Shown one piece after another: positions 12,701-32,524 of a stretch of 33,908 nucleotides of DNA (positions within the stretch are counted from its first letter, which is position 1; the number at the start of each line of letters is the position of its first letter). The position numbers and the translations under genes are program-made. Location of the stretch: IMG/VR virus record IMGVR_UViG_3300042485_000991, positions 1-33,908 of that record; one strand, 5' to 3'. The notes below the pieces were generated by a model, which searched no databases, was not told where the DNA came from, and was given only the letters and a program-made list of their open reading frames with translations. Source of the DNA: a virus.

Positions 12701-15309
12701 TGGAAAACTTTACATTTTATTTAAACTTTAAAAATGATGCAACAGGCTTGATTGAAATAACCGAGCCTGTAAAATTCGATGGCGCCAGCTTTACAGTTGA
12801 ACAAGATAAAAGCCGATATGGAAGGGACATAAGCTACGGTAATGAAGAAGTCAGTCTAGAGTTTTATGACGGAACTTTTGATAATGGTTTAACAATGGGA
12901 TTATTTCAATTGTTAGATTATTACAAAACATACGGATTTGAGAGTGAGATTGAATTTATACTTAAAAAAAACGGTGTAAATTTTACAGTTGGATTATTAG
13001 ATTTTCAAATGGCAAAAACTGATTTACTTACTTATTTTGAATGTAAAATTATTCAGGAAAACAATAGGGCTATAATAAACAGGCGTAAGGATATTAATGT
13101 TGATGTTTTTAGTGATAAAGATCTGGATTTGAATACAATTACACCACTAACAACAGAAAGCATTTTATTAAAGGCAAAGCCAATATTACAAGCAAGTGAA
13201 TGGAAAAGTGTAGGATCGAAATCATTTCCAATTGATTCAACAGATCCAACAAAAATCTGGTGTTTATTTAATTTTGCTCAAACAACTGTAAATTACGGAA
13301 TTCAAAATTCATTAAGTTGGCTATCAGATACTATTTATACGGCAACCATTTCAGATGCTGAAAAATTTGGTTTAATATACGCACAAAATAAATTAAACAA
13401 TATAAAAGTAACTGCCACAATTGACATGACTTATGTAGTTACACAGGGTGTTTTTCCAGACCTTGGATTTATGGGTTTATATTTATGTTGGGGCGATACT
13501 TTTGACCCTTCAAATACATCAACAACAAGGCATTTATTATACAATGATACATGGGGCGCTTCTGTTGAAAAAACTGTATTATTAAATGAAACATTTGAAT
13601 ATACAATTGACGAAGTTAATCAGGGCGGTAAAGTTTGGTTGTTTTGGGCTGGTATTGGTTATGTTGACTGCAATATTGATGTTACTCACAGGAATTTCAT
13701 TATAAAAGTTGATGCCGTTTCTACATCAATTGATAGTATAATTAAAGGAGTTCGTTATGTTGATTTGTTTAAACAAAATATAAAATCAATTTCAGGATTA
13801 ACACTTGAGGCGCCTAAATATGATGTTGCTGGTGAATTTTATGAACAATTTGCATTTAATGGTAAATTAATCAGGCAATATGTTGACAAGCCGTTTTACG
13901 TTAATTTTAATGACTTAACAGAAGGTTTACAGGAATTGAATGCTGACTATCAGATAAACCAAAATAATGTATTTATAGGGCAGTATAATGACTTTTACAA
14001 TAATGTTGATCTGGGTGGATTTTTACAAGCTCCAGATTCTGAATTTAATACAAATTTCAATGACAGATATAGTATTAACAGTTTTAATTATTCTTATAAG
14101 ACTTTTGAACAAAATAAAGATGAAAGCAACACAATTGACAGCATACATACAGATGCACAATTTTTACTGCCAAATAAACTTGTTGAAAATGTTAAGAAAG
14201 TAGAGGTAAATTATATTCGTGATCCGTTCAGTATTGAGGCATCCAGAAGACAAGGTATAAATACAAAAGAAAGCACCTCACTTGATAATGATGATAAAAT
14301 ATTTTTGATTGATGTTTTTCCACTACCTTCAGGAAGTACAAATGGATTTGGATTACGTTTATTAATGCGAATTAATAGCGGAAGGCTTGAAATACTTAAC
14401 AATACTTTAAATGGTGAGGGTACACCATTTGATTGGACTTTGTTGGGTTTTGTTGTCGGTTCTGATTTTGATATTATTGCTGGTGAAAATATAGGATCTT
14501 ACACAGTATATTCATTAGAGCGTGAAAAAATAGTCTTAACACCGATTGGATTTACACCAAGTTTTGAAGGTGATGGATTTATTAAAACAGAATTTCCACT
14601 TAATAATGTATCTTATGTAAATAGAACAAGTCAGGGTTTCACTGAAATACTTAATTTGTCAAGTGGCGACAATTATAGTAATTTAAGATATTCAATTAAA
14701 AGGAATATGAAATACTGGAGCAGTTATTTAAAAACAGCATCCAAGTACAAACCAAACGGAATAATACAGAATACATTCTTTAAAAATAACGGTTTACTTT
14801 CTACAAAATACGGATCAGAAACGGTTGCAACTGTTGAAGGTGGCAATATTAATGTAACAGATTTAAGCGATGCAATTTTATCACCGATGGTTTTTAAAAC
14901 AAAGGTTGTAGCAGAATTTGAAACAGTTAAAACATTGCTGGATAATTTAGCCACTCAAAAAGGATTTATTAGAGTAGTTGACACAAATAACCGAGTTTTA
15001 AAAATACATCCTACAAAGTTAGACTATGAATGGATGAGTAATTTATTAACAATTGAAGGAGAGCAAAGAAATGAAAGCGACTTTGTAACCATTGACACAA
15101 TTGGGACTGAATTAATAAATATTAACGAGGTTGGTTATGATTCAATAATATTAAAACGTAATTGGTTCAAAATTGATGGTTTTTTCATAACTTTGTATGA
15201 TTTCAATAGTGTACCTTTAATTAATCCTACAAGGATCGAAAAAGTAAAGGTAAACGGAGTATCTTACACAACAGCAGTTAATTTAAGTGATGCAATCAAT
15301 GGATTATAG
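12700..15309 (+). CDS. Large tail-tip / baseplate protein
   Basis: An 869-residue protein starting in a TAATG overlap with the tape measure stop. The N-terminal 110 residues (ENFTFYLNFKNDATGLIEIT ... DYYKTYGFESEIEF) look like a distal tail-type beta domain. The remainder is strand-rich with a mixed C-terminal part. Place and size fit a fused distal tail/tail-hub component that closes the tube and carries the fibres. Very large proteins of this kind follow the tape measure in many Bacteroidota siphoviruses and are usually called only tail protein. No enzymatic motif seen. Confidence 0.7.
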   Translation: MENFTFYLNFKNDATGLIEITEPVKFDGASFTVEQDKSRYGRDISYGNEEVSLEFYDGTFDNGLTMGLFQLLDYYKTYGFESEIEFILKKNGVNFTVGLLDFQMAKTDLLTYFECKIIQENNRAIINRRKDINVDVFSDKDLDLNTITPLTTESILLKAKPILQASEWKSVGSKSFPIDSTDPTKIWCLFNFAQTTVNYGIQNSLSWLSDTIYTATISDAEKFGLIYAQNKLNNIKVTATIDMTYVVTQGVFPDLGFMGLYLCWGDTFDPSNTSTTRHLLYNDTWGASVEKTVLLNETFEYTIDEVNQGGKVWLFWAGIGYVDCNIDVTHRNFIIKVDAVSTSIDSIIKGVRYVDLFKQNIKSISGLTLEAPKYDVAGEFYEQFAFNGKLIRQYVDKPFYVNFNDLTEGLQELNADYQINQNNVFIGQYNDFYNNVDLGGFLQAPDSEFNTNFNDRYSINSFNYSYKTFEQNKDESNTIDSIHTDAQFLLPNKLVENVKKVEVNYIRDPFSIEASRRQGINTKESTSLDNDDKIFLIDVFPLPSGSTNGFGLRLLMRINSGRLEILNNTLNGEGTPFDWTLLGFVVGSDFDIIAGENIGSYTVYSLEREKIVLTPIGFTPSFEGDGFIKTEFPLNNVSYVNRTSQGFTEILNLSSGDNYSNLRYSIKRNMKYWSSYLKTASKYKPNGIIQNTFFKNNGLLSTKYGSETVATVEGGNINVTDLSDAILSPMVFKTKVVAEFETVKTLLDNLATQKGFIRVVDTNNRVLKIHPTKLDYEWMSNLLTIEGEQRNESDFVTIDTIGTELININEVGYDSIILKRNWFKIDGFFITLYDFNSVPLINPTRIEKVKVNGVSYTTAVNLSDAINGL

Positions 15310-23602: not shown

Positions 23603-23625
23603 TACTAAAGTATTATTTATATTTG
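23596..23625 (+). promoter_or_regulatory. Promoter TATATTTG with palindromic operator before the HTH gene
   Basis: TATATTTG (23618-23625) is preceded by the perfect palindrome ATAATACT-AA-AGTATTAT (23599-23616), which fills the -33/-7 spacer exactly. The -33 element reads TTT instead of TTG. The palindrome shares the form TAATAyT-AA-ArTATTA with the operator at 23317. The downstream leader holds a tRNA-like fold and the HTH regulator gene at 23718, so autoregulation is plausible. Confidence 0.75.
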
Positions 23626-23653
23626 CATAAGTTCTTTGAAATACTGGAAAATA

Positions 23654-23696
23654 GTTAGGGTAGTGGTACTTTATTAAGTTCGATTCTTAACCTAAC
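23654..23696 (+). ncRNA. tRNA-elbow-like RNA element in the leader of the HTH gene
   Basis: GTTAGG (23654-23659) pairs with CCTAAC (23691-23696). Inside are GTA-GTGG-TAC (23660-23669), resembling a D-arm with the usual AGTGGTA loop, and TTAAG-TTCGATT-CTTAA (23674-23690), a perfect 5-bp T-arm whose loop matches the tRNA T-loop consensus TTCRANY. The anticodon arm is absent, so this is no tRNA. It lies in the roughly 87-nt leader between the promoter at 23618 and the HTH gene. It may be a tRNA-mimicking control element, a processing site or a remnant. Confidence 0.6.
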
Positions 23697-23717
23697 AACT
23701 AATTTAATAAATCATTT

Positions 23718-23900
23718 ATGAACCATAAACTAATTAAACTATTTGAAAAAAGCAAATTAACAAAAGGAGAATTTGCCGACCAGATCGGTATCCAAAGACA
23801 AAATTTAAACAAATTATTAGAATCAAAATTTATATTAAAACCAGCAACTTATGAAAAGTATTATAAAAACTTTTTTACTAAAAAAAGATTATCAGATTAA
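23718..23900 (+). CDS. Short HTH (XRE/Cro-like) regulator, 60 aa
   Basis: The protein is essentially one helix-turn-helix: LIKLFEKSKLTKGEFADQIG then IQRQNLNKLLESKFILKP, with the typical 'FA..IG...Q.L.KLL' pattern of XRE/Cro proteins at residues about 9-40. It has no dimerisation or peptidase domain, as in Cro-type repressors. It is transcribed from the promoter at 23618 whose spacer is a palindrome, which makes it the best candidate for binding the shared operators. A long structured leader precedes it. No integrase gene is present, so a lysogeny role is uncertain. Confidence 0.8.
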   Translation: MNHKLIKLFEKSKLTKGEFADQIGIQRQNLNKLLESKFILKPATYEKYYKNFFTKKRLSD

Positions 23901-28678: not shown

Positions 28679-28700
28679 TTAAAAAAAATTATTATATTTG
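28676..28700 (+). promoter_or_regulatory. Putative promoter TATATTTG with weak operator before the primase gene
   Basis: TATATTTG at 28693-28700 fits the -7 consensus. The 16 bases before it (28676-28691) read TAAT, eight bases of mostly A, then ATTA, the outer frame of the operators at 23317, 23599 and 32965, but the middle is a plain A-tract, so this may be chance. There is no TTG at -33. The transcript would start about 28705, at the first hairpin of the structured leader. Confidence 0.6.
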
Positions 28701-28704
28701 TGCC

Positions 28705-28788
28705 TGTGTTATTGGTGGAGCATTAACGCAATTAACGAAATTTTTTAAAAGCCTTATGGTGCGGAACTCCACTTCCAATCCATAGGGC
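28705..28788 (+). ncRNA. Structured leader with complementary (kissing) hairpin loops
   Basis: Hairpin 1 is TGTGTTA (28705-28711) with TAACGCA (28724-28730) around a 12-nt loop. Hairpin 2 is GCCTTATGG (28751-28759) with CCATAGGGC (28780-28788), carrying an inner GGAA/TTCC stem and the 6-nt loop CTCCAC (28767-28772). The loop of hairpin 1 contains GTGGAG (28715-28720), the exact complement of CTCCAC. A U-rich stretch ATTTTTATTTTA follows. The element spans nearly the whole leader of the primase gene. It is either a regulatory leader (attenuator or riboswitch-like) or a small RNA ended by hairpin 2. Confidence 0.6.
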
Positions 28789-28804
28789 ATTTTTATTTTA
28801 TATT

Positions 28805-31042
28805 ATGGAAAAACACTTTGTTAAAAAAATAGTAGAAAATGGTTTTTCTATTATACCTGTCAATGATGACAAAACACCTAAAGGATCATGGAAAAGAAAT
28901 CAGGAAATACCTTATTCAATTAATGAGATAGATTCTATTGATTCAAATACTTGGGCAATTATTACAGGATTTAATGATCTAGAAATTATTGATTTTGATT
29001 TGAAGGTATTAAGCACCTTAAAAGAACAAAATGAGTTATGGGCTGAAATATTGAAATTCTTAAAAGATAATATTGATGACTTTGATAAAAAGTTTTCTAT
29101 TTATAAAACTAAAAACAAAGGATATCATATTTTATATAAATGCAAGGTAATTGCAGGAAATACTAAAATTGCTAAATTAAAAGGCCATAAAGAAGCGATA
29201 ATTGAAACAAGAGGTAAATTTGGTTATGCAATTTTATATGATGATTGTATTAATAATATTAATTACGCAAATATTCAGGAAATCACAGAAGAAGACAGAT
29301 CGATTTTATGGTCTTGTTTAAAAACATATAATTATATTGATGATTTACCAGCAGAACCAAAAAAAGAAAAACACGAATATCAAGAAACGGAAATTGCCTG
29401 CTGGGATGATTATAACAACAAAACAGATATTTTTGATGTTATTGGATCCGATTTTACTATTGTAGCAAATCACACAAAAAAATACATTATTAAAAGACAC
29501 GGTTCGGCATCACCTCACAGTGGATATATTTACAAAGAAGACAATAGAATGTTTCTTTTTAGCACAGGAACAATTTATCCACACGAAAAACAAATTACTC
29601 CTTTCATTGCTTACTGTTGGAAAAATCATAACGGAAATTTATCTGAAGGAGCAAAAGATTTATATCAAAAAGGATTTGGATCACGTTTGAAATCTAAATT
29701 AAAAGAATTAAAAGAAGAAATTCAGATCCAGCCAATTATTAACAAAGATGATTTAATATTTCCAATAGATATATTTCCAAAAGATATTCAAACCTATATT
29801 TTAGAATGTAACCAGAAATTGGATAGTTCTATTGAGTATATGGGTTGCTCAATGTTATGGCTTATATCTGTATGCATTGGTAATTCAATTGATGTAGAGG
29901 TCAAAAGAGGATGGAATGAAAACTTATCAATTTGGCTTTCAATTGTTGGTAAGGCTGGATTAGGTAAAACTCCAAGTATATCAAATATTATATTTCCACT
30001 ATTAAAAATAAATGCAAAACAAATTAAAAATTATATTAAAGAAAATGAAAAATTCGAATACTATGATTCACTATCTAAAAAAGAAAAAGAAGAACACAGC
30101 GAAGTTCAAAAGCCTATTAAAACTCAATTTATTGCTAATGATATCACTCTTGAAGCATTGGTGGATTTACACCAAGAAAGTGATAACGCTGTTGGGGTCT
30201 TCAAGGATGAATTAGCTGGATGGTTAAAAGATATGAATAAATACAGGGAAGGTTCTGATCTTGAATTCTGGTTAAGTAGTTGGAGCGGTAAAAGTGTAAA
30301 TTTAAACAGAAAAACTGCAAAAAGTGCATTTGTTGAAAAACCATTTATACCAGTTTTAGGCGGGATTCAACCAAGTATATTTAATAGCTTTTATACTGAA
30401 GAAAACAAAGACAATGGATTCATGGATAGAATGCTGTTATGCTATCCAGATCTTAAAATTGATTATTATAACGAAAATGAAATTTCTGAAAATATACTGA
30501 ATTGGTATAAAGAAATAATAATTTCTTTTTATGATACTATCAAAAGCATTGTCAAACGTGATGAAGATGATGAAATTTTATCACTTACTGCAAAGTTTTC
30601 AGATGATGCAAAGATAGAATGGAAGCGGATGTTTAATGAAATGACCAGCGTTCAAAATGATGAAGAAGAAAATGAGTATCTTAAAAGCATGTATCCAAAA
30701 CAAAAATCATACATTCCACGCTTCGCTTGTTTAATACACGTTTTTAACGACTTTTTTATTGATGGTGGTAATTCGCTATTGATTTCAAAAGAAAGTATCT
30801 TAAAAGCCGAAAAATTAAGTAAATACTTTATAGCAACAGCAAAAAAGATAAAAATTAATTCTGCTGAAGTATCCAAGCTAAAAAGTACAATTGGATTGAA
30901 TAAGGGTAAAAATGAAAAAGAAAAACTTTATGAAGTCTGGAAGGAAAATAAGAAATTTAATAAAACAGAAACAGCAGAACTTTTAGGCATATCAAGAGTA
31001 AGTGTTTATAATTGGGTTAAAGAGTTCGAAAGTGTAAAGTAG
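28805..31042 (+). CDS. Primase-polymerase/helicase (DUF3987 type)
   Basis: A 745-residue replication protein. The N-terminal ~220 residues fit the bifunctional primase-polymerase (prim-pol) fold: FSIIPVNDDKTPKGSW, the catalytic D63-F-D65 in EIIDFDLK, and NKGYHILYKC. A linker follows, then a RecA/AAA+-like domain of the DUF3987 family with Walker A GKAGLGKT (382-389) and the acidic KDELAGWLKDM (about 463), and finally a helix-turn-helix at residues about 715-740 (NKTETAELLGISRVSVYNW). It probably primes and unwinds phage DNA. It is preceded by a structured leader and followed by an iteron-like array whose first copy lies in its last codons, hinting that its HTH binds the origin. Confidence 0.88.
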   Translation: MEKHFVKKIVENGFSIIPVNDDKTPKGSWKRNQEIPYSINEIDSIDSNTWAIITGFNDLEIIDFDLKVLSTLKEQNELWAEILKFLKDNIDDFDKKFSIYKTKNKGYHILYKCKVIAGNTKIAKLKGHKEAIIETRGKFGYAILYDDCINNINYANIQEITEEDRSILWSCLKTYNYIDDLPAEPKKEKHEYQETEIACWDDYNNKTDIFDVIGSDFTIVANHTKKYIIKRHGSASPHSGYIYKEDNRMFLFSTGTIYPHEKQITPFIAYCWKNHNGNLSEGAKDLYQKGFGSRLKSKLKELKEEIQIQPIINKDDLIFPIDIFPKDIQTYILECNQKLDSSIEYMGCSMLWLISVCIGNSIDVEVKRGWNENLSIWLSIVGKAGLGKTPSISNIIFPLLKINAKQIKNYIKENEKFEYYDSLSKKEKEEHSEVQKPIKTQFIANDITLEALVDLHQESDNAVGVFKDELAGWLKDMNKYREGSDLEFWLSSWSGKSVNLNRKTAKSAFVEKPFIPVLGGIQPSIFNSFYTEENKDNGFMDRMLLCYPDLKIDYYNENEISENILNWYKEIIISFYDTIKSIVKRDEDDEILSLTAKFSDDAKIEWKRMFNEMTSVQNDEEENEYLKSMYPKQKSYIPRFACLIHVFNDFFIDGGNSLLISKESILKAEKLSKYFIATAKKIKINSAEVSKLKSTIGLNKGKNEKEKLYEVWKENKKFNKTETAELLGISRVSVYNWVKEFESVK

Positions 31043-31290
31043 ATAATGTAAAGTAACTTTACACTTTTATTGAAGCTAAATAATTGTAAATAAGCTGGTT
31101 AACATAAAAAGTGTAAATGTAAACCAGCTTTACACTAATAAATAAAAAAAATGAAAAACAAAAAAAATAATTTTCTTACTGTAAAGTGTAAAATGCTTTA
31201 CACTTTCCCTGTTAAGCCTTATAAACACTAACATTTTACTGTAAAGTTGCTTTACACTTTTATACTTTACACTTTACACTTATTTTACAC
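31032..31290. other. Iteron-like array, candidate replication origin
   Basis: Ten exact copies of TTTACAC or its complement GTGTAAA lie in 259 bp: GTGTAAA at 31032, 31111, 31186 and TTTACAC at 31058, 31129, 31197, 31251, 31266, 31273, 31284. Several are paired in inverted repeats: GTAAAGT-A-ACTTTAC (31048-31062), AAGCTGGTT/AACCAGCTT (31092-31100, 31122-31130), AAAGTGTAAA/TTTACACTTT (31183-31206) and GTAAAG-TTG-CTTTAC (31241-31255). An A-rich tract at about 31139-31176 could melt easily. The array lies between the primase and helicase genes. It could instead be an operator cluster for the helicase; no TAnnTTTG box is visible here. Confidence 0.7.
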
Positions 31291-31291
31291 T

Positions 31292-32524
31292 ATGATACAA
31301 TTAAGAGATTACCAAATAGAACTATCAAACAAAGGATCTGATATTTTAAGAAAAAAAGGAATTGTTTATTATAATTTTAGCCCAAGAGTTGGTAAAACAT
31401 TAACAGCATTACAAACGTGTCAGAATGTTAATGCAAAGGATGTTTTATTCATTACAAAGATAAAAGCCTTTAAAAGCATACAGGATGATTTTGATTCTGC
31501 TGGATATGATTTTAATTTAACGATCATAAACAAAGAATCCATTCATAAAATAGAACATAACAATTTTGATGTTATTATTTATGATGAAGCGCATGGATTA
31601 TTCTCAACCTACCCAAAGCCAAACAACTTTTATAAAATAGCAAAGCAAAGGTTTTCAAAAATACCAGCTATTCTTTTAAGTGGTACAATGTGTGTTGAAT
31701 CAGGTTCGCAAATTTATCACCAGTTTAATTTTAGCCATTATAGTCCATTTAAACAATATATAAATTTTTATAGATGGGCCAAAGATTACGTAAAAGTAAC
31801 ACAGAAGCAATTGGGCTATGGTTTAATCAATGATTATAGCAAATGTGATATAATAGCAGTTAATAAAATTATAGAGCCTTACACGCTAAAATTTACACAG
31901 GAGCAAAGCGGATTTATATCAAAGGTTAATAAACACGTTATACATTATCCAAGTTTAAATATAGAATTGATTGAAAGGTTAAAAAAAGATAATGTAATTG
32001 AAGGTAAAAACGAATTGATCATTGCGGATAGTGGTGTCAAATTAATGCAAAAGATACACCAGTTAGAAAATGGAACAATTATATTTGAATCTGGTAATAG
32101 TCAAATTTTAAGCGATGCAAAAGGCCAATTTATTAAAAAATACTTTAAAGGTAAAAAAATAGCAATAATTTATAACTTTAAAAATGAATTAAATTTGTTA
32201 CAAAATGTTTTCAAAGATCAATGTACAACAGATTTAAATGAGTTTAATTATACTAATAAACATTATTTAGGTCAACAAGTTAGTTCATGTGAAGGAATAT
32301 CATTATCAAAAGCCGATGCATTAGTATTTTATAATTTTGGTTATTCAGGCAAAAACTTTATTCAGGCTATTGACAGATTAACTTTGAAGGACAGACCAAC
32401 AAATGATGTTTATTTTATATTTGGTAAAGGGAGTTTAACTGAAGCTATTTATAAAACAGTAAGCAAAAAAGAAAAATTTAATATAAAACAATTCAATGAG
32501 TACAGAGCAACAAATTCAAACTAA
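31292..32524 (+). CDS. DEAH-box superfamily 2 helicase
   Basis: The frame can be read from a TTG at 31247, but that part is iteron sequence, so the ATG at 31292 (MIQLRDYQIELSNKG) is taken, giving 410 residues. Motif Q/I: LRDYQ and SPRVGKT (30-36). Motif II: DEAH (98-101) in IIYDEAHGLF. Motif III: LLSGTM. The second RecA domain has the motif V/VI-like GEGISLSKADALVFYN and QAIDRLTLKDRPTNDVYF, where an Arg finger is expected in the DR. It matches phage SNF2/RecG-like helicases that act at replication or recombination forks. It overlaps the VRR-NUC gene by 29 nt. Confidence 0.9.
   Translation: MIQLRDYQIELSNKGSDILRKKGIVYYNFSPRVGKTLTALQTCQNVNAKDVLFITKIKAFKSIQDDFDSAGYDFNLTIINKESIHKIEHNNFDVIIYDEAHGLFSTYPKPNNFYKIAKQRFSKIPAILLSGTMCVESGSQIYHQFNFSHYSPFKQYINFYRWAKDYVKVTQKQLGYGLINDYSKCDIIAVNKIIEPYTLKFTQEQSGFISKVNKHVIHYPSLNIELIERLKKDNVIEGKNELIIADSGVKLMQKIHQLENGTIIFESGNSQILSDAKGQFIKKYFKGKKIAIIYNFKNELNLLQNVFKDQCTTDLNEFNYTNKHYLGQQVSSCEGISLSKADALVFYNFGYSGKNFIQAIDRLTLKDRPTNDVYFIFGKGSLTEAIYKTVSKKEKFNIKQFNEYRATNSN

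Follow-up and report, generated by a model that had tools for sequence, protein, structure and literature searches.

A leader RNA with two hairpins whose loops are complementary to each other lies upstream of a DUF3987 primase/helicase gene in the window and belongs to a family that is widespread beyond the window and larger than first noted. The window, i.e., the whole stretch of DNA that was analyzed, is a linear viral record of 33.9 kb (IMGVR_UViG_3300042485_000991), in which the element occupies positions 28693–28805. It is near certain that the two-hairpin structure with its kissing loops is real. As to its kind, the element is a structured leader, probably an attenuator. The specific reading that we favor, with a little less than an even chance of being right, is a cis-acting attenuator: the 5′ hairpin would use its loop to hold the loop of the terminator. 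The features are as follows:

28693–28700, + strand: promoter box TATATTTG, kept in relatives, with a start site predicted at about 28704.
28705–28730, + strand: hairpin 1, stem 28705–28711/28724–28730 (TGTGTTA/TAACGCA), from the fold and covariation.
28715–28720, + strand: GTGGAG, the kissing sequence in loop 1; exact complement of 28767–28772, with matching changes in relatives.
28731–28750, + strand: AU-rich linker with GAAATTTTTT; the words GAAATT/AATTTT recur in the AU-rich linkers of the family.
28751–28788, + strand: hairpin 2, terminator-like, from the fold and covariation.
28751–28759/28780–28788, + strand: outer stem of hairpin 2, GCCTTATGG/CCATAGGGC, with double changes in 7 of 9 pairs.
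28763–28766/28773–28776, + strand: inner stem of hairpin 2, GGAA/TTCC, with double changes in 3 of 4 pairs.
28767–28772, + strand: CTCCAC, the hexaloop of hairpin 2, pairing with 28715–28720 according to the kissing covariation.
28789–28800, + strand: T-tract ATTTTTATTTTA directly after hairpin 2, anchored to the stem and not to the ATG.
28805–31042, + strand: DUF3987 primase/helicase gene (745 aa), the downstream ORF, with its ATG at 28805.

All of the parts named in an earlier, sequence-only reading of this DNA were found at their positions, and the DUF3987 primase/helicase ORF that it had placed downstream was confirmed. That reading had described two nested stems; the hairpins are consecutive, and the GGAA/TTCC stem alone is nested, inside hairpin 2. 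The box TATATTTG is presumably a Bacteroidota promoter box of the TAnnTTTG type. The predicted 5′ end of the RNA is taken up by hairpin 1, which had changes on both sides in 7 of its 7 pairs. Hairpin 2 ends at 28788, leaving 16 nt before the start codon of the primase/helicase gene. When the element was folded with RNAfold, both hairpins appeared in the MFE and the centroid structures (−29.8 kcal/mol, the loop–loop pair not being counted), with a z-score of −3.07 and 1 of 200 shuffles folding as well. A transcript beginning at the predicted start also folded into two hairpins, with a z-score of −3.15.

Since our scanner for the element (promoter box, two hairpins, loop–loop match of at least 6 and T-run) requires complementarity, sets chosen without complementarity were used to test the kissing pair. 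Set (a) comprised 76 loci collected by primase homology only, 38 of which had a TAnnTTTG box 60–185 nt upstream. Among these, the loop zones showed a match of at least 6 in 36/38 and of at least 7 in 32/38; mismatched combinations of loops across loci reached the same lengths in 17% and 6%, respectively. The regions upstream of primase homologs showed this architecture with quite different loop pairs (CTCTCAC, GCACTAC, GTGGAAG, CCATCAC, GCTCAAC and others). Set (b) was found with a pattern that fixed the stems and flanks only and left four loop letters free, yielding 68 viral stretches. A matching second loop was present in all 49 of the distinct stretches, which represented three loop types, versus 82 of 1048 (8%) cross-combinations of loops. 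In set (c), where the pattern fixed hairpin 2 around a free hexaloop, the new types CTCTAC, CTGCAT and CTGCCT appeared, with their exact complements GTAGAG, ATGCAG and AGGCAG in hairpin 1. The exceptions were L197, with a partial match; L189 and L214, cut by the contig edge; and L182, which has a deletion. Other matches in this set look like unrelated sequence. The matched loop changes in sets (a)–(c) strongly support the kissing-loop RNA that had been proposed.

A comparison of L182 with L096 showed that the promoter and hairpin 1 are absent in L182 at the same place, while hairpin 2 and the start of the downstream GIY-YIG-like gene are retained as in L096. Judging from this comparison, L182 is a natural deletion variant.

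A formal covariation count used 37 sequences, with the pseudoknot included in the structure; 19 of them share GTGGAG, many because a search had asked for GTGGAG. Double changes occurred in 21 of 26 pairs, with a covariation score of 0.563, compared to 0.197 for shuffled and at most 0.135 for slid alignments, figures that are not from R-scape and are inflated by relatedness. Within the loop–loop helix, 4 of 6 pairs had double changes and 91% of the cells were paired. In a covariance-model alignment of 56 more diverse members, which was fitted to the structure and is subject to the same inflation, the stems alone scored 0.781 versus 0.217. The conclusion about the kissing pair stands apart from these counts because sets (a)–(c) are independent of them. 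The compensatory changes that the sequence-only reading had suggested looking for in homologous leaders were thus clearly found in both stems and in the loop–loop pair, and the two loops are complementary by Watson–Crick pairing, with covariation, as kissing loops should be.

Run on 795 kb of phage DNA, the scanner returned 123 elements, against 1 in Markov-shuffled copies at equal score, which bears out the earlier claim that such an arrangement is unlikely by chance. Many weak hairpins do arise in AT-rich DNA, but this count, the fixed order of promoter, hairpin 1, hairpin 2, T-tract and ATG, and the matched loop changes have already refuted a chance arrangement or an element acting at the level of DNA, and we give either next to no weight. 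After deduplication at a higher cut-off, 97 entries with 64 loop words remained, including a few palindromic or iteron artefacts, and a stricter, TTTG-only set had 90 elements with 58 loop words, again with a few artefacts. Overall, this arrangement was seen in over 100 phage contigs as well as in Flavobacterium and Cellulophaga phage isolates, with about 60 different loop pairs. The exact pattern for the loop pair of the window matched 23 stretches of viral DNA that share the architecture and have different genes downstream, most of them with a TAnnTTTG-like box.

Most carriers are uncultured phage contigs. The isolates were located through a neighboring protein: Flavobacterium phage lillamy9-2 has one element (MN812213, at 14098), Flavobacterium phage mymlan6-1 has two (MN812227, at 11640 and 12675), one of which precedes a NUMOD4/HNH endonuclease, and Cellulophaga phage phi19:1 has one. 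Cellulophaga phage Nekkels_1 probably carries further elements. BLAST with the element itself as the query gave weak low-complexity matches only and no isolated relatives. No match was found with the covariance model in 296 Bacteroidota genomes (a weak test, with 13 candidates scored per genome), nor with one exact subtype pattern in 395 Bacteroidota genomes, which is also a weak test.

Some further features were observed in this material. Between the primase and helicase genes, at 31030–31300 of the window, AAGTGTAAAG/CTTTACACTT is repeated many times in direct and inverted orientation; the repeats are iteron-like and perhaps mark a replication origin. Relatives seem to carry other repeat words (GTTACAC, TGCGCA) at the matching place. 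Region 23618–23720 of the window contains a second TATATTTG-type box and, after it, a candidate with a weak loop match (GTTAGG/CCTAAC), which precedes a small HTH-like ORF; this candidate was left out of the family because it lacks a good T-tract. In lillamy9-2 (L175), positions 12781–12815 matched the Rfam DUF805b RNA at 52.1 bits, above threshold. Finally, L001, L002, L070 and the window have primases that are 87–94% identical and a promoter region common to all, and their leader types differ (CTCTCAC and GCACTAC in L001/L002, GTGGAG in L070 and the window), as if whole leaders had been swapped between close relatives.

Across the family, the elements follow a fixed order of promoter box, hairpin 1, AU-rich linker, hairpin 2, T-tract and ATG. 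Hairpin 1 mostly starts 3–5 nt after the promoter box (59/90 elements), which is about where transcription starts for promoters of the TAnnTTTG type. Hairpin 2 is built of an outer stem, often followed by an internal loop and a short inner stem, and has the kissing sequence at its tip. The loop words are 6–9 nt long and GC-rich (56–59%) in AT-rich genomes. Folds of six members showed the two-hairpin form only, some with an extra hairpin in the linker. In about a third of the loop types, the linker lacks the length needed for both hairpins to form a straight rod, so that the structure must bend, or two states may compete. Family-wide, among 49 loop types, longer hairpin arms went with a shorter linker (rho −0.73), and the loop-to-loop spacing thus stays roughly constant.

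The position of the T-tract is set by the stem and not by the ATG: where the ATG is distant, the tract still comes directly after the stem. Runs of at least four Ts were found in 46/46, 26/28 and 14/16 members of sets chosen without the T-run, compared to 60/296 control gene starts. In most members, the initial pairs of the outer stem place C in the 5′ arm and G in the 3′ arm. Hairpin 2, with a GC-based stem followed by a U-tract, lies between the promoter, which was identified by consensus only, and the start codon, as in an attenuator, and together with its stem-bound T-tract has the make-up of an intrinsic terminator. Hairpin 2 of the window was missed by a simple terminator scan, whose model does not accommodate the inner stem and internal loop.

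The main and serious rival to the attenuator is an element for mRNA stability or translation, in which the 5′ hairpin, locked to hairpin 2, would protect the 5′ end and/or offer an open AU-rich start region, and no termination would occur. The location of hairpin 1 at the predicted 5′ end and the short, narrowly varying distance from hairpin 2 to the ATG are consistent with this explanation, as is the fact that initiation in Bacteroidota occurs largely without Shine–Dalgarno pairing. However, stability alone requires no U-tract, and the T-tract keeps to the stem, not to the ATG, and occurs far more often than it does ahead of other genes. We therefore consider this rival unlikely, though a real contender, and favor termination because the T-tract is stem-bound.

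In the attenuator that we propose, transcription would start just past the TAnnTTTG box, as suggested by the spacing, so that hairpin 1 would form at the 5′ end of the RNA. As the tip of hairpin 2 emerges from RNA polymerase, its loop would pair with loop 1; the pairing is indicated by covariation, and its timing is presumed. Hairpin 2 and the U-tract would then act as an intrinsic terminator directly before the start codon, and each transcript would either end as a leader RNA of about 95 nt or read through into the gene. The loop–loop contact may set how well the terminator closes: the kiss could help the terminator to close, or it could hold the tip so that the lower stem is unable to zip up. 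Either way, the leader would gate or throttle the expression of replication, modification and homing-endonuclease genes. The folds of the six members revealed no conserved antiterminator (alternative) fold, and no regulator was identified. The action of the leader probably depends on host machinery alone or on the RNA structure itself, as suggested by the way it moves with homing-endonuclease cassettes between different phages.

The genes downstream of the element encode DUF3987 primases, DEAD/SNF2 helicases, an AAA ATPase, a DNA methylase, a ParB-like protein and a primosomal-like protein, as well as HNH and GIY-YIG endonucleases in many contigs, and unknowns. The sequence-only reading had seen in it the leader of the primase/helicase gene; it does precede that gene in the window but is not specific to primases, as it is followed by many unrelated genes. 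Endonuclease cassettes typically have a subtype in which the loop word is GTCGTCG, GTCGTAG or GTGGTCG. In many contigs, endonuclease-type leaders are followed by a small protein (MNTISVQGFKIDINHF...) that recurs and has no match to a PHROG family (e.g., L242:3223-3459). A general role as a replication origin or primer RNA was considered and rejected, since genes for endonucleases, methylases and ParB-like proteins also carry the element upstream.

The position of the element also bears on the alternative of a separate small RNA, which the earlier reading had raised along with the attenuator. Such an RNA, of about 95 nt, would be released by termination and act in trans, either by targeting other RNAs or by serving as a tag for self-recognition, with loop 1 of one molecule pairing with loop 2 of another that has the same code. 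A terminated leader would indeed be compact, and there are many loop codes, mostly different from each other within multi-element contigs, although such contigs are few. However, nearly every copy directly precedes an ORF, with the ATG 10–26 nt downstream of hairpin 2 in 80/90 elements, and no gene-less element was established. This close tie to the following ORF favors a cis-acting leader, and the free small RNA is disfavored and in our view improbable.

Also disfavored, and still less probable, is a pseudoknot or attenuator under antisense control, as in the replication control of I-complex and pT181-type plasmids. A replication gene downstream, loop–loop pairing and variable loops would all fit such control, and the loops of plasmid incompatibility types vary in a comparable way (PMC10724649). 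Opposing TAnnTTTG promoters, however, were not enriched (7/90 elements versus 12% of random sites in a test of the consensus only), and genes without a link to replication also have the element upstream. In the I-complex/IncL-M rep leaders, such as the repZ pseudoknot of ColIb-P9, there is likewise long-range pairing of a hairpin loop in the leader of a replication gene, with loops that vary by type. In repZ, however, the pairing activates translation under the control of an antisense RNA, whereas our element shows no sign of an antisense promoter, has the loop of a terminator-like hairpin as the pairing partner, and precedes many non-replication genes.

Intrinsic-terminator attenuators in 5′ leaders, of the trp/his type or, as in pT181, driven by a countertranscript, share with the element a promoter, a structured leader, and a terminator-like hairpin with a U-tract before the gene. 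They differ in that neither a leader peptide nor a ligand domain was identified here, nor an alternative fold or an antisense RNA, and in that the terminator loop of the element pairs in cis with a 5′-terminal hairpin loop of variable sequence. Loops of 6–7 nt that are complementary throughout are known from ColE1 RNAI/RNAII and TAR/TAR*, and type L185 has two exactly complementary hexaloops; the contact in those systems is between two RNAs (TAR* being artificial), whereas both loops of the element are in one leader. In phage T4, homing-endonuclease genes likewise have structured RNA, in the form of 5′ hairpins, immediately ahead of the start codon. Those hairpins hide the ribosome site, whereas the hairpins described here end 10–26 nt upstream and are also found before replication and methylase genes.

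The put RNAs of phage HK022 raise another alternative, in which the leader would modify RNA polymerase to read through later terminators. Like put, the element places two hairpins right at the beginning of phage transcripts, and it occurs in many phages with no obvious phage factor. However, put RNAs depend on conserved primary sequence and are not known to have an internal terminator or a kissing pair. In our element, stems and loops vary freely with compensation, the match alone being kept, and the terminator is inside the element itself, making a put-like activity doubtful.

In Rfam 15, the window had no match, with the best sub-threshold scores far below threshold, and 13 further loci had no match at the element. 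No kissing-loop leader, attenuator or phage RNA of this form was found in open-access full text, and the main text of two large structured-RNA surveys does not mention kissing loops. A search of the same literature for RNA-seq of phages that carry the element likewise found none. Within Rfam 15 and the open-access literature, the earlier statement that no element of this form has been described in phages therefore holds. Both the family and its architecture appear to be new, and an earlier description outside the open-access literature is possible. Tentatively, and as a proposal more likely to need revision than to stand unchanged, we suggest a new class of phage riboregulator, consisting of a promoter, a 5′ hairpin and a terminator, in which a loop–loop lock, free in sequence and obligatory in its match, would gate the entry of RNA polymerase into the gene, with a code diversified so as to prevent cross-locking between the leaders of different genes and phages.

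These results describe a widespread RNA element, recognizable by its shape alone, in phages of Bacteroidota, a phylum in which phage gene control is poorly known. The element travels with homing-endonuclease cassettes and precedes replication genes, and so it probably relies on host machinery in many phages. If the lock does gate termination, it would constitute a compact, programmable switch for Flavobacterium-type hosts, for which few genetic parts are available.
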